Assembly: GCA_015709595.1 (NCBI GenBank)
Contig: CP054178.1
Span: 124,001-188,000 of the forward strand
DNA: 64,000 bases
Direction: 5' to 3'
From: Phycisphaeraceae bacterium
GTDB lineage: Bacteria > Planctomycetota > Phycisphaerae > Phycisphaerales > SM1A02
Below are positions 34,577 through 37,447 of the stretch, one piece after another. Each line of letters opens with the position of its first letter. Position 1 is the first letter of the stretch. Position numbers and translations under genes: made by a program. Under the pieces are notes generated by a model, which searched no databases, was not told the origin of the DNA, and saw only the letters and a list, made by a program, of their open reading frames with translations.

Positions 34577-35239
34577 TCAGGGCATCTGCTGCCGACCCTG
34601 AATCGCGTCGCCCAGCACGGCCCGGTTGGCGTATTCGAGCTGCGAGCCGGTGGGCAGTCCGCGGGCCAGCCGTGACACCGCCACGCCACGGCGGCGCAGG
34701 TCTTCGGCGATGTGCATGGCCGTGCCGTCGCCTTCAAGATCCGGATTCAGGCCGAGGATCACTTCGCGCACCGCCTCGCCCCTCGCGTTGCTGGCGGGGT
34801 CATCCACGCGATGGAGCAGTGCTTCGAGCGTGATGTCCCGCGGTCCCACGCCGGCCAGCGGATCAAGACGGCCCATCAGCACGTGGTACACGCCCCGGTA
34901 CATGCCTGTCTGTTCCAGCGCGATCAGATCGCGCGGCTGCTCGACGACCAGGATGGTCGCCGCGTCGCGCCGCGGGTCGGCGCAGATCGGACATGGGTCC
35001 GCGTCGGTCAGGTTGTAGCAGATCGAACAATGGCGGACATTCTTCTTCACGTCCGTCACCGCATGGGCCAGGCGCAGGGCCTCGTCCGAGGGCGACTTGA
35101 GAACGTGAAACGCCAGACGCTCCGCCGTGCGCCGTCCGATGCCCGGCAGCGAGGCGAAGGCCTGGATGAGCCGGTTGACCGCCTCGGGGTAGGGACCAGG
35201 TTCGTTGGGGCGACGGGCGATGAGCGGACTCCCTTGCAC
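34577..35239 (-). CDS. recR: recombination mediator protein RecR
   Basis: A 220-residue RecR. Seen: the helix-hairpin-helix LPGIGRRTAERLAFHVL at 31-47, a four-Cys zinc finger HCSICYNLTDADPCPIC (C71, C74, C83, C86), and a Toprim domain with VVEQPRDLIALEQTG and GLNPDLEGD. With RecF and RecO it loads RecA on gapped DNA. It starts 10 bases after ybaB and completes the dnaX-ybaB-recR order common in bacteria. The N-terminal ~15 residues are an extension. Confidence 0.95.
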   Translation of the reverse strand: MQGSPLIARRPNEPGPYPEAVNRLIQAFASLPGIGRRTAERLAFHVLKSPSDEALRLAHAVTDVKKNVRHCSICYNLTDADPCPICADPRRDAATILVVEQPRDLIALEQTGMYRGVYHVLMGRLDPLAGVGPRDITLEALLHRVDDPASNARGEAVREVILGLNPDLEGDGTAMHIAEDLRRRGVAVSRLARGLPTGSQLEYANRAVLGDAIQGRQQMP

Positions 35240-35249
35240 ATCCGGTCGG

Positions 35250-35624
35250 TCAGAGCAGCTCCCCCAGACCGCCCGGCGGCAGGGGAAGCCCCAGTTCCTG
35301 CGCGGCGCGGGCCAGCTCCTCGGCGGCGCGCTGCTGGGCCTTCTCCAGCGCCGCGTTCACCGCGCCGACGATCAACTCCTGCGCCAGCGCGCGGTCATCG
35401 GCGTTCGACGGGTCCGCCAGTGCCGCCATGAGCGCCGGGTCCACCTCGATCGAGACGACGCGCAGCTTGCCGGTCGCGGTGGCCCTGACCACGCCGCCGC
35501 CCGTGTCGGCGGAGACACGCAGGTCTCCCAGCTTGGAGCGGACCTCCTCCAGCCGCGCCTTGATCCGGGGCAGATCCTTCATCAGCCCCGCCATGCCCGT
35601 GAGATTGCGAAGCGCATCAAACAT
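35250..35624 (-). CDS. ybaB: YbaB/EbfC nucleoid-associated protein
   Basis: A 124-residue protein with MFDALRNLTGMAGLMKDLPRIKARLEEVRSKLGDLRV, then GGGVVRATATGKLRVVSIEVDPALM and a helical end AALEKAQQRAAEEL. This is the standard YbaB pattern. The family forms DNA-binding dimers. ATG 35624 overlaps the dnaX stop by eight bases, so translation is probably coupled; recR starts 10 bases after its stop. Confidence 0.92.
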   Translation of the reverse strand: MFDALRNLTGMAGLMKDLPRIKARLEEVRSKLGDLRVSADTGGGVVRATATGKLRVVSIEVDPALMAALADPSNADDRALAQELIVGAVNAALEKAQQRAAEELARAAQELGLPLPPGGLGELL

Positions 35625-37212
35625 GTTCACTCCCGGAAGCAGCGTCGGACGCCCCCGCGCCCATGACACGATCGTCGTGCTGGGTCGTGCCGCGATGGTC
35701 ATCGATATTCTCCACATCGCTCTGAACGCTGACGATCTCGGCGTTGAACAGCGTTCTCACCCTGGCGACGATCGGATGGGAGGCGAGGGCATCGACCTCC
35801 GCGCGACTGCCTCGCCCGGTTGGCTTGATCTCGCCGGCGGCGACAGGCCCGGCGCCGGCTGGCGTGACCGTCGCCGGAGCCGTTGACGCCATCGGTGCGC
35901 GGGTGACTCCGACGGAGCGGCTGATGAGCGTGGTGGAGGCCGGGTCCGTCGGGCGACCGAATGACGCCGGCCCCGCGGGCGTCAGCCCCGCGTCATCGGA
36001 CTTTTTTTTTTCGACGCCCGCGGCGCCGGCCCCCCCTGCCGTGCTCCCCTTGACCGACCCCTGCAGGAGCGCGGGGATTGACGCCAGCCGCTCCGTGAGC
36101 GCCAGGCGCACGATGACCGCGTCGAACAGCGCTCGGGGGGTGGAGGAGGCCTTGACCGACCGCGAGGTCGTCTCACACAGGGCGATCATGTGAACCACGG
36201 CTGGCAGGTCGAATCGCTCGGCATGACGCTCGGCGGCTTCTCTCGCGTCGCCGAAGAGTTCGACGAGCTCCGAGTCCTTGCCGCACGCCGCGATGACCAT
36301 GACGTTGCGCAGATGCTCGGCGAGGGTCTCCAGGGCCTGCTCGATGGAGGTTCCCCGCGCCAGCAGGTCGCTGGCGGCTGTCAGCGCGGCCCTGGGATCG
36401 CCCGCCGCCATACCGTCCACCAGGGCGGCGACCAGCGCGTGGTCGGGCGTGCCCAGCGTGGCCTGCAGCACGTCCTCGGTCACCCGTCCGTCGCCGGCGG
36501 CGATGAGCCGGTCGAGCAGACTCAGCCCGTCGCGCATCGAACCGTTGGCCAGCCGCGCCACTTCGAGCACGGCCTTGGGCTCCGCCTCGATCGATTCCTT
36601 CTCCAGCACCTCGCGCAGGTGGGCGGCGATCTTGGCGGCGGGGATGTTGCGGAAGTCGAAGCGCTGGCAGCGCGACTGAATCGTCGCGGGCACCCTGTGC
36701 GATTCAGTGGTGCACAGGATGAACTTGACGTGGCTGGGCGGCTCCTCCATCACCTTCAGCAGGGCGTTGAAGGCCTGAGGCGTGAGCATGTGGACTTCGT
36801 CGATGATGTAGATCTTGTACGGACAGCGGGCGGGGCGCAGCCCGGCGTTGGCGATCAGGTCGCGCACCTCATCAATGCCGCGGTTGCTGGCGCCGTCGAT
36901 CTCGATCACATCAATGTCGTCGCCCCGCAGGATGGCGGCGGCGATGGCGTCCTTCTCTCGGAGCGAATCGTTGACGTTGAGCGTCTTGGCGAAGATGCGG
37001 GCCATCGAGGTCTTGCCCACGCCGCGCGTGCCCGTGAAGAGATAGGCATGGGCGGTGCGGCCGCGGTCAATGGCGTTGCGCAGGGTGGTGGCGATGGCTT
37101 CCTGGCCGACGATCTCCTCGAAGCAGGTGGAGCGGTACCGCCGCGCGAGCACCGTGTAGGCGCCCGTCTGCTTGGTTTCGACGGCGTCCATTCCGGGAAG
37201 GAGCGTGGTCAT
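35617..37212 (-). CDS. dnaX: DNA polymerase III subunits gamma and tau
   Basis: The 531-residue tau form of the clamp-loader ATPase. Walker A GTRGVGKTS is at 61-69, Walker B is IIDEVHML, and the sensor region is in SHVKFILCTTESHRVPATIQSRCQRF. The zinc module that normally carries four Cys between Walker A and IDGASNRG is replaced by a Cys-free stretch (NVNDSLREKDAIAAAILRG). A run of ten A at codons 401-404, with a stem-loop five bases downstream, would give a gamma form of about 406 residues by frameshifting. MM starts at 37215 and 37212 are equivalent. SRP RNA lies just upstream; ybaB overlaps downstream. Confidence 0.95.
   Translation of the reverse strand: MTTLLPGMDAVETKQTGAYTVLARRYRSTCFEEIVGQEAIATTLRNAIDRGRTAHAYLFTGTRGVGKTSMARIFAKTLNVNDSLREKDAIAAAILRGDDIDVIEIDGASNRGIDEVRDLIANAGLRPARCPYKIYIIDEVHMLTPQAFNALLKVMEEPPSHVKFILCTTESHRVPATIQSRCQRFDFRNIPAAKIAAHLREVLEKESIEAEPKAVLEVARLANGSMRDGLSLLDRLIAAGDGRVTEDVLQATLGTPDHALVAALVDGMAAGDPRAALTAASDLLARGTSIEQALETLAEHLRNVMVIAACGKDSELVELFGDAREAAERHAERFDLPAVVHMIALCETTSRSVKASSTPRALFDAVIVRLALTERLASIPALLQGSVKGSTAGGAGAAGVEKKKSDDAGLTPAGPASFGRPTDPASTTLISRSVGVTRAPMASTAPATVTPAGAGPVAAGEIKPTGRGSRAEVDALASHPIVARVRTLFNAEIVSVQSDVENIDDHRGTTQHDDRVMGAGASDAASGSEHV
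35961..36011 (-). promoter_or_regulatory. putative programmed frameshift site in dnaX
   Basis: On the coding strand, ten A (36011-36002) are read GAA AAA AAA AAG, which contains the slippery A AAA AAG in the zero frame. A five-base spacer is followed by an inverted repeat ATGACGC/GCGTCAT (35996-35990 and 35967-35961). Shifting -1, or gaining one A, reaches TGA after V-R. Losing one A reaches TGA after S-P-M-T-R-G. Confidence 0.65.
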
Positions 37213-37261
37213 CATGCACCCGTGGCCGGGGGAGGGGCGGACGCCCCGGCATCCCGTGGCC

Positions 37262-37390
37262 CGGCGGCGCGGATGACGACCAGGTAACCGAAGGCCCGGA
37301 CGACGACGCTTATGGCTGCTGCGGTCAAGCCCTGACCAGGTTCGCGAGCCATCCGTCCACCGGCCCCGGTCGTCATCCGACGCCGCGGGG
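37262..37390 (-). ncRNA. ffs: bacterial small signal recognition particle RNA
   Basis: The minus strand has the SRP domain IV pattern GGTCAGG (37337-37331) and AGCAGCC (37320-37314) followed by ATAAG. The flanks close a long hairpin: eleven perfect base pairs GGATGACGACC/GGTCGTCATCC, then, after a single-base bulge, GCGGCG/CGCCGC. Its place just upstream of dnaX matches the scr-dnaX-yaaK-recR order of Bacillus. The apex reads GG-GCUUGA-CC rather than a GGAA tetraloop. The ends are approximate. Confidence 0.85.
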
Positions 37391-37447
37391 TCCACAAGAT
37401 CACACGATCCCGCGGGGCTGACATCCTATCGCGCCCGACGCCCGTGG

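Follow-up and report, generated by a model that had tools for sequence, protein, structure and literature searches.

Does the dnaX gene in this DNA make one product or two, and if two, by which device? A preliminary description of the window, as we call the whole stretch of 64,000 nt that was analysed, had noticed ten consecutive A's in the gene and proposed that they programme two DnaX proteins, a short gamma and a full-length tau. We followed up this proposal in the window, in its genome and in related genomes. The features concerned are given here in window coordinates.

34577..35239, minus strand: recR, the next downstream gene (Pfam RecR_HhH, RecR_ZnF and Toprim_4).
35250..35624, minus strand: ybaB, whose first 8 nt, from the ATG on, overlap the end of the tau frame (Pfam YbaB_DNA_bd, 9.4e-17).
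35617..37215, minus strand: dnaX in the tau reading frame, 532 aa, with ATG at 37213-37215 and TGA at 35617-35619 (translation and domain matches).
35620..36000, minus strand: tau-specific tail of 127 aa, of a short type, with end motif HPIVARVRTLFNAEIVSV (from the sequence).
35961..35996, minus strand: inverted repeat downstream of the run, arms ATGACGC (35990-35996) and GCGTCAT (35961-35967), not above composition.
35982..35984, minus strand: TGA closing the +1 frame (one lost A), predicted gamma of 410 aa ending in EKKSPMTRG.
35993..35995, minus strand: TGA closing the -1 frame (one added A or a -1 ribosomal shift), predicted gamma of 407 aa ending in EKKKVR.
36002..36011, minus (coding) strand: candidate A10 slippage run, codons GAA AAA AAA AAG (from the sequence; position conserved in the class).
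37275..37371, minus strand: small SRP RNA gene that directly precedes dnaX in the same orientation (Rfam RF00169, score 47.2 bits at a gathering cut-off of 40).

The gene is identified as dnaX, for the tau/gamma subunit of DNA polymerase III, by its match to TIGR02397 dnaX_nterm (6.6e-113, 377.6 bits, cut-off 250) and to the Pfam families PF13177, PF22608 and PF12169, which stand for the ATPase/delta' region of an AAA+ clamp-loader ATPase, its lid and gamma domain III. The top eight among the best 80 named matches listed come from Phycisphaerales and other Planctomycetota, with 55-64% identity, which makes an origin of the window in this group very probable. Tau has a computed mass of 56.1 kDa, and an end motif similar to that of its tail recurs by eye in the tails of relatives. 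The position of the small SRP RNA gene argues against a longer reading frame from a GTG at 37395.

At its other end the tau stop overlaps the ybaB start at 35617-35624 (minus strand, 8 nt), so an early stop at gamma might, through translational coupling, reduce the output of ybaB and recR. In the class, 61/151 loci have an ATGTTY start near the tau stop, and in 23 it lies at or before 3 nt past the stop.

The run of ten A's is present on the coding strand as described, and it falls where the break between clamp-loader part and tau tail had been placed: in the linker after domain III, past the end of Pfam DNA_pol3_gamma3 at residue 377. After the run, the -1 frame reads V-R-stop (2 codons) and the +1 frame S-P-M-T-R-G-stop (5 codons). 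Both early stops had thus been seen correctly, with product lengths of 406 and 409 aa that prove one residue short; either form of gamma has a computed mass of about 44 kDa. The rarity of such a run, put forward as an argument for selection, is borne out. It is the only run of at least nine A's within the 64-kb window, where shuffling gives an expectation of 0.02 matches, and the 3.84-Mb genome holds eight such sites, six of them with at least ten A's. At this rate, the chance of finding one in a 330-nt linker is 3.4e-4. Another A10 of the window's genome (L004, C1:3121089-3121098) is followed by only a few more codons of the uncharacterised open reading frame in which it lies.

We then asked what becomes of the run in relatives. 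The set of dnaX genes covers the window's family and order, its class and its phylum; with 14 duplicates removed, it amounts to 225 distinct loci. Three family- or order-level genomes were not used, one for want of a match (G013) and two for weak ones (G017 and G023); 73 loci were examined at the phylum level, among 125 genomes with a dnaX match. The class set comprises the 151 loci that hold the linker. It leaves out L028, whose contig ends before the linker, and six genomes matching dnaX (G089, G097, G111, G128, G144 and G151). Two loci are incomplete (L124 and L156) and the tail of L117 is short.

Absence of the run in relatives had been named as one of the findings that would speak against the proposal. 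Instead, 120/151 dnaX genes of the class keep an A9 or A10. Allowing that homopolymer length may be off by one in some assemblies, class linkers carry A10 in 93 cases, A9 in 27, A8 in two, A7 in 12, the heptamer G_GGA_AAA in five and no site in 12; no run is longer than ten. An A-run or G_GGA_AAA occurs in 58/60 loci of the window's order, one of these being the A8 type. Across the rest of the phylum, at least nine A's are found in 12/73 loci examined (six A9, five A10, one A11). A set of 25 loci from named Planctomycetota, spanning Phycisphaerales, Gemmata, Aporhodopirellula and Schlesneria and including 3/25 genes already in the main set, has a linker run of at least seven A's in 20, none in 4, and 1 incomplete locus; the run is A9 in Gemmata sp. 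IIL30 and A10 in Aporhodopirellula aestuarii.

In the class, the A9-A10 runs stand 28-91 aa beyond query residue 360 (quartiles 34 and 42), in a linker that, judged by reading, is otherwise very variable. Elsewhere in the same genes they are nearly absent. The N-terminal coding parts of the 225 loci (234,431 nt) contain no run of at least nine A's, the regions beyond the linker (318,655 nt) contain one A9 and one T10, and the 225 linkers contain no run of at least seven T's. Judged by these counts, the A10 run in the dnaX linker is kept by selection.

The sites fall into two kinds that differ in more than length. A9-A10 runs use all codon phases (12, 67 and 41 in phases 0, 1 and 2, n=120; 6, 60 and 27 for A10 alone), with phase 1 dominant and the distribution not random. 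Among genes that read tau in frame, 82/101 close the two remaining frames within 10 codons when a tail threshold of 39 codons is used. With a threshold of 60 codons the figure is 80/98, at least one frame staying open beyond 10 codons in 18/98; 2000 draws of random positions in the same linkers average 6.1 and never exceed 15. High GC content does not explain the pattern, because in A9-A10 genes with a linker GC of at least 0.70 the +1 frame is still closed in 21/25, against a null mean of 5.4 and maximum of 14. Folding finds no excess of downstream structure at the 120 A9-A10 sites (median z -0.11, 5/120 below -2).

In the class sample, A7 and G_GGA_AAA are confined to the window's order (12/60 and 5/60, against 0/91 elsewhere). 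All 12 A7 runs of the class read NNA AAA AAA (phase 2), the frame of a -1 ribosomal heptamer. The same lock holds in 5/5 further named Planctomycetota and in 1/2 A7 genes from the rest of the phylum, the exception being far from the usual place. G_GGA_AAA is in frame in 5/5 cases, followed by GCN TGA (L034, L038, L044, L053 and L054). The +1 frame closes within 10 codons in 105/117 A9-A10 genes (three with their tail in +1 left out) versus 1/12 A7 genes (Fisher 5.5e-9), 0/5 G_GGA_AAA genes and 1/5 A7 genes of the named Planctomycetota. Downstream folds have a median z of -1.04 at A7 (4/12 below -2) and -2.80 at G_GGA_AAA (4/5 below -2); taken together, the two differ from A9-A10 with a Mann-Whitney p of 1.2e-5. 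A Shine-Dalgarno-like core precedes 3/12 A7, 4/5 G_GGA_AAA and 21/120 A9-A10 sites; on both counts, fold and core, only some of the A7 sites resemble that of E. coli. Kinship among the loci weakens the contrast, because only 4 independent pairs stand on well-supported branches, of which 3.3 agree on average and 0 disagree (p 0.25).

This division has a simple rationale. A polymerase that adds or drops A's yields mRNAs in all three frames, and therefore every frame other than that of tau needs a stop. Ribosomal shifting at a heptamer leads to -1, which leaves the +1 frame free to stay open. The A9-A10 sites fit RNA polymerase slippage of the Thermus type, and the A7 and G_GGA_AAA sites fit -1 ribosomal frameshifting. 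By length and closed frames, the window's site is placed with the polymerase-type group.

The product encoded by the genomic frame also varies. In 8/12 A7, 5/5 G_GGA_AAA and 19/120 A9-A10 genes this frame gives gamma, and tau requires a shift. A profile search locates the tau tail of the out-of-frame A7 genes in -1 in 8/8 cases (weakly in L031, E 0.026); for L031 and L063, a rule based on the longest open frame had given a +1 tail, which the tail profile assigns to -1. For G_GGA_AAA, L034 shows a clear -1 match. The four others have no significant match in any frame, and their -1 tails stay open for 67-76 codons with a like end motif, by eye. As their frames read, tau is makeable in these five genes only via a -1 shift. 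Of the 19 out-of-frame A9-A10 genes, 16 have their tail in -1 and 3 in +1, and such an unfixed direction marks polymerase slippage by a criterion proposed in PMC3711429. Some of these 19 may be assembly errors, because among the 10 single-contig genomes listed, the 8 with A9-A10 have tau in frame in 8/8; this doubt applies less to the A7 and G_GGA_AAA genes with tau out of frame.

We mapped the devices on a quick DnaX tree (LG+G4, unrooted, 55/148 inner branches poorly supported). On it the device requires 18 changes and the A7 label 8, at least 5 of the latter on supported branches. Polymerase slippage on A9-A10 is probably the older state, judging from its spread on this unrooted tree. It seems likely that in the window's order the device changed several times between A9-A10 polymerase slippage and ribosomal -1 shifts on A_AAA_AAA or G_GGA_AAA, that the product of the genomic frame was swapped repeatedly, and that selection keeps the two-product output while transcription and translation machineries are interchangeable.

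How, then, should the window's own site be read? The preliminary description had also pointed to E. coli, whose dnaX uses a -1 ribosomal frameshift at A_AAA_AAG with an upstream Shine-Dalgarno sequence and a downstream stem-loop (PMC5009743, PMC3711429). That heptamer does lie within the window's run in the E. coli frame, and after a -1 shift the product would end within one or two codons, in a similar way to E. coli; moreover, where this order has A7 or G_GGA_AAA the sites look ribosomal, making such a device possible in the lineage. The proposed stem has both its arms, but the 55 nt that contain them fold no more stably than shuffled sequence (z 0.69, 144/200 equally stable), and by downstream structure the site ranks 74 of 120 among A9-A10 sites (z 0.29). 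The 22 nt upstream of the run hold no Shine-Dalgarno-like 4-nt core, and the +1 frame is closed as well, here as at most A9-A10 sites. In E. coli one tRNA-Lys decodes both codons, and the site depends on this (PMC5009743), which is why the tRNA-Lys(CUU) present beside tRNA-Lys(UUU) in the window's genome counts against this reading; a CUU-pattern tRNA-Lys match occurs in 11/12 genomes checked, and ARAGORN assigns 12/12 loci fetched to tRNA-Lys(CUU). Its presence also fits the outcome of an in-frame heptamer scan of class loci lacking a run of at least seven A's, which finds no A_AAA_AAG: the ribosome-type heptamers are A_AAA_AAA and G_GGA_AAA. A purely ribosomal shift of the E. coli type, with polymerase slippage absent, is therefore unlikely at the window's site. 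Somewhat better placed, though still the minority view, is that polymerase slippage and ribosome sliding make gamma jointly, an account that overlaps with the one we prefer. Ribosomes slide on AAA repeats (PMC4363877), and whatever its phase an A10 could supply a heptamer, either A-only or A_AAA_AAG, but the data do not need this addition, given the flat structure downstream of A9-A10.

Three other accounts do without a programmed site. The run might be chance, or a plain lysine-rich linker encoding EKKK that slips incidentally, and such runs do mostly encode xKKK or xKKN. Yet AAA makes up 34% of the Lys codons in the N-terminal parts of the class dnaX genes, and the window's gene has 2 AAA against 15 AAG, both AAA belonging to GAA AAA AAA AAG. 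Conservation acts at the DNA level, across phases that encode different residues, and the stops clustered in both frames would be left unexplained; on codon use and stop placement we reject this account as very improbable. No more credible is a phase-variation (contingency) tract, in which replication slippage toggles tau between cells. The run is a long coding homopolymer, and 19/120 A9-A10 genes, as assembled, do not read tau in the genomic frame. Against this, dnaX is an essential replication gene, run length is kept at 9-10 class-wide, and A7 and G_GGA_AAA could hardly act in this manner, yet the two-product layout persists with them. Finally, the plus strand could carry an antisense intrinsic terminator, with the T10 after a GC-rich hairpin. 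The inverted repeat abuts the T-run and the window's antisense hairpin has a z of -1.7, but a terminator scan gives no call and the hairpins of the 120 A9-A10 sites have a median z of -0.12, with 5 below -2; we reject this candidate, whose probability is close to nil.

We conclude that the window's A10 is very likely a programmed transcriptional slippage site, through which dnaX would give gamma and tau. That the site programmes two products finds strong support in its conservation and in the closure of both frames. The Thermus-type slippage also mentioned in the preliminary description agrees with what we see, namely closed frames on both sides, no phase lock and no stimulatory structure, whereas its E. 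coli-type reading is not supported. The window's site has the sequence features that a Thermus-type site should have: at least nine A's after domain III, stops close by in either shifted frame and a conserved run. Some observations sit less well with it. Ribosomes may slide on long A runs too, and closed frames are compatible with ribosomes; phase 1 dominates; the independent pairs are few; 12/151 class genes lack a site and 18/98 leave a frame open; and a Shine-Dalgarno-like core does precede some A9-A10 sites, though not that of the window.

By polymerase slippage, the two products would arise as follows. RNA polymerase would gain or lose A's on the A10 run, so that dnaX mRNAs would be a mixture of all three frames past it. 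Messages with 10 A's (or 10 plus or minus 3) would give tau of 532 aa, and all others would stop within 2 or 5 codons, giving gamma of 407-410 aa. Such a gamma would retain the ATPase and clamp-loader domains and be made without the tau tail; its role, like the gamma:tau ratio, is something we infer. In E. coli, the tau tail binds the polymerase.

The closest known system is Thermus thermophilus dnaX, with transcriptional slippage on an A9 (PMC1088944, PMC5009743). The window's gene shares with it a long A run on the coding strand, tau in the genomic frame and near stops in both other frames. Gamma comes from slipped mRNAs in Thermus, and we propose the same for the window's dnaX; the differences are the A10 instead of A9 and the phylum. 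Two-ORF dnaX genes were collected by Antonov et al. 2013 (PMC3711429), who count 17 fs-genes, nine with A10 and others with A9, A8 or A7. They resemble the window's relatives with tau out of frame (19 A9-A10, 8 A7 and 5 G_GGA_AAA), unlike the window's gene, where tau is in frame. The same survey proposes unfixed shift direction as a mark of transcriptional slippage and suggests this mechanism for shorter poly-A dnaX too; contrary to that suggestion, A7 and A9-A10 behave differently in the present set.

For some bacteria, among them Chlorobium phaeobacteroides, a reversed layout is described, in which the zero frame encodes gamma and tau needs a ribosomal frameshift; according to the same account, a single nucleotide can suffice to exchange the roles of the DnaX products (PMC5009743). 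The out-of-frame A7 and G_GGA_AAA relatives are of this kind, and the window's gene is not reversed. Caulobacter crescentus also has two DnaX products, as predicted here, but obtains gamma by proteolysis of tau, with no recoding (PMC5009743). Thermus A9 slippage, the E. coli heptamer, A10 two-ORF dnaX and the reversed ribosomal layout are thus already in print. Among the open-licence papers listed, we found no report of dnaX slippage in planctomycetes apart from the general survey PMC3711429, where two planctomycete species are counted and, in the parts consulted, no planctomycete dnaX is named. As far as we have seen, three things are new: class-wide conservation, the distinction of polymerase-type from ribosome-type sites, and the apparent swaps that a single order has made, repeatedly, in its device and its default product.

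According to PMC3290774, most bacteria besides E. coli, its relatives and Thermus keep no dnaX frameshift signature, and the need for gamma outside these groups had been doubtful. A class-wide signature under strong selection, surviving changes of device, argues that the short DnaX matters in this class. The relatives also offer a natural comparison in a single gene, with polymerase-slip sites in some species and matching ribosome-slip sites in others. Their sequence rules could help to call the mechanism: A9-A10, all phases and both frames closed for the polymerase type; A7 or G_GGA_AAA, phase-locked and with more structure, for the ribosome type.

Several loci outside the main pattern deserve mention. 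L052 and L105, counted among the class loci with no site, contain other in-frame heptamers. A subclade of five (L128, L138, L145, L155 and L165) has four members, all but L165, that lack the run and carry the tau tail in frame; it is a possible tau-only control group. In seven other Planctomycetota (L220, L221, L224, L225, L226, L239 and L243) the zero frame stops 29-71 aa past residue 360. They have no run of at least seven A's, and a tau-like tail lies in another frame in 5/7, so that other devices or separate tail genes may be at work. A9-A10 occurs in the dnaX linker of two Clostridia (L298 and L302), one member of Ignavibacteria (L280) and one of Bacteroidota (L282), chance being less excluded here as 3/4 of these runs lie in low-GC DNA; in both Clostridia, the long frame is not in the genomic frame.
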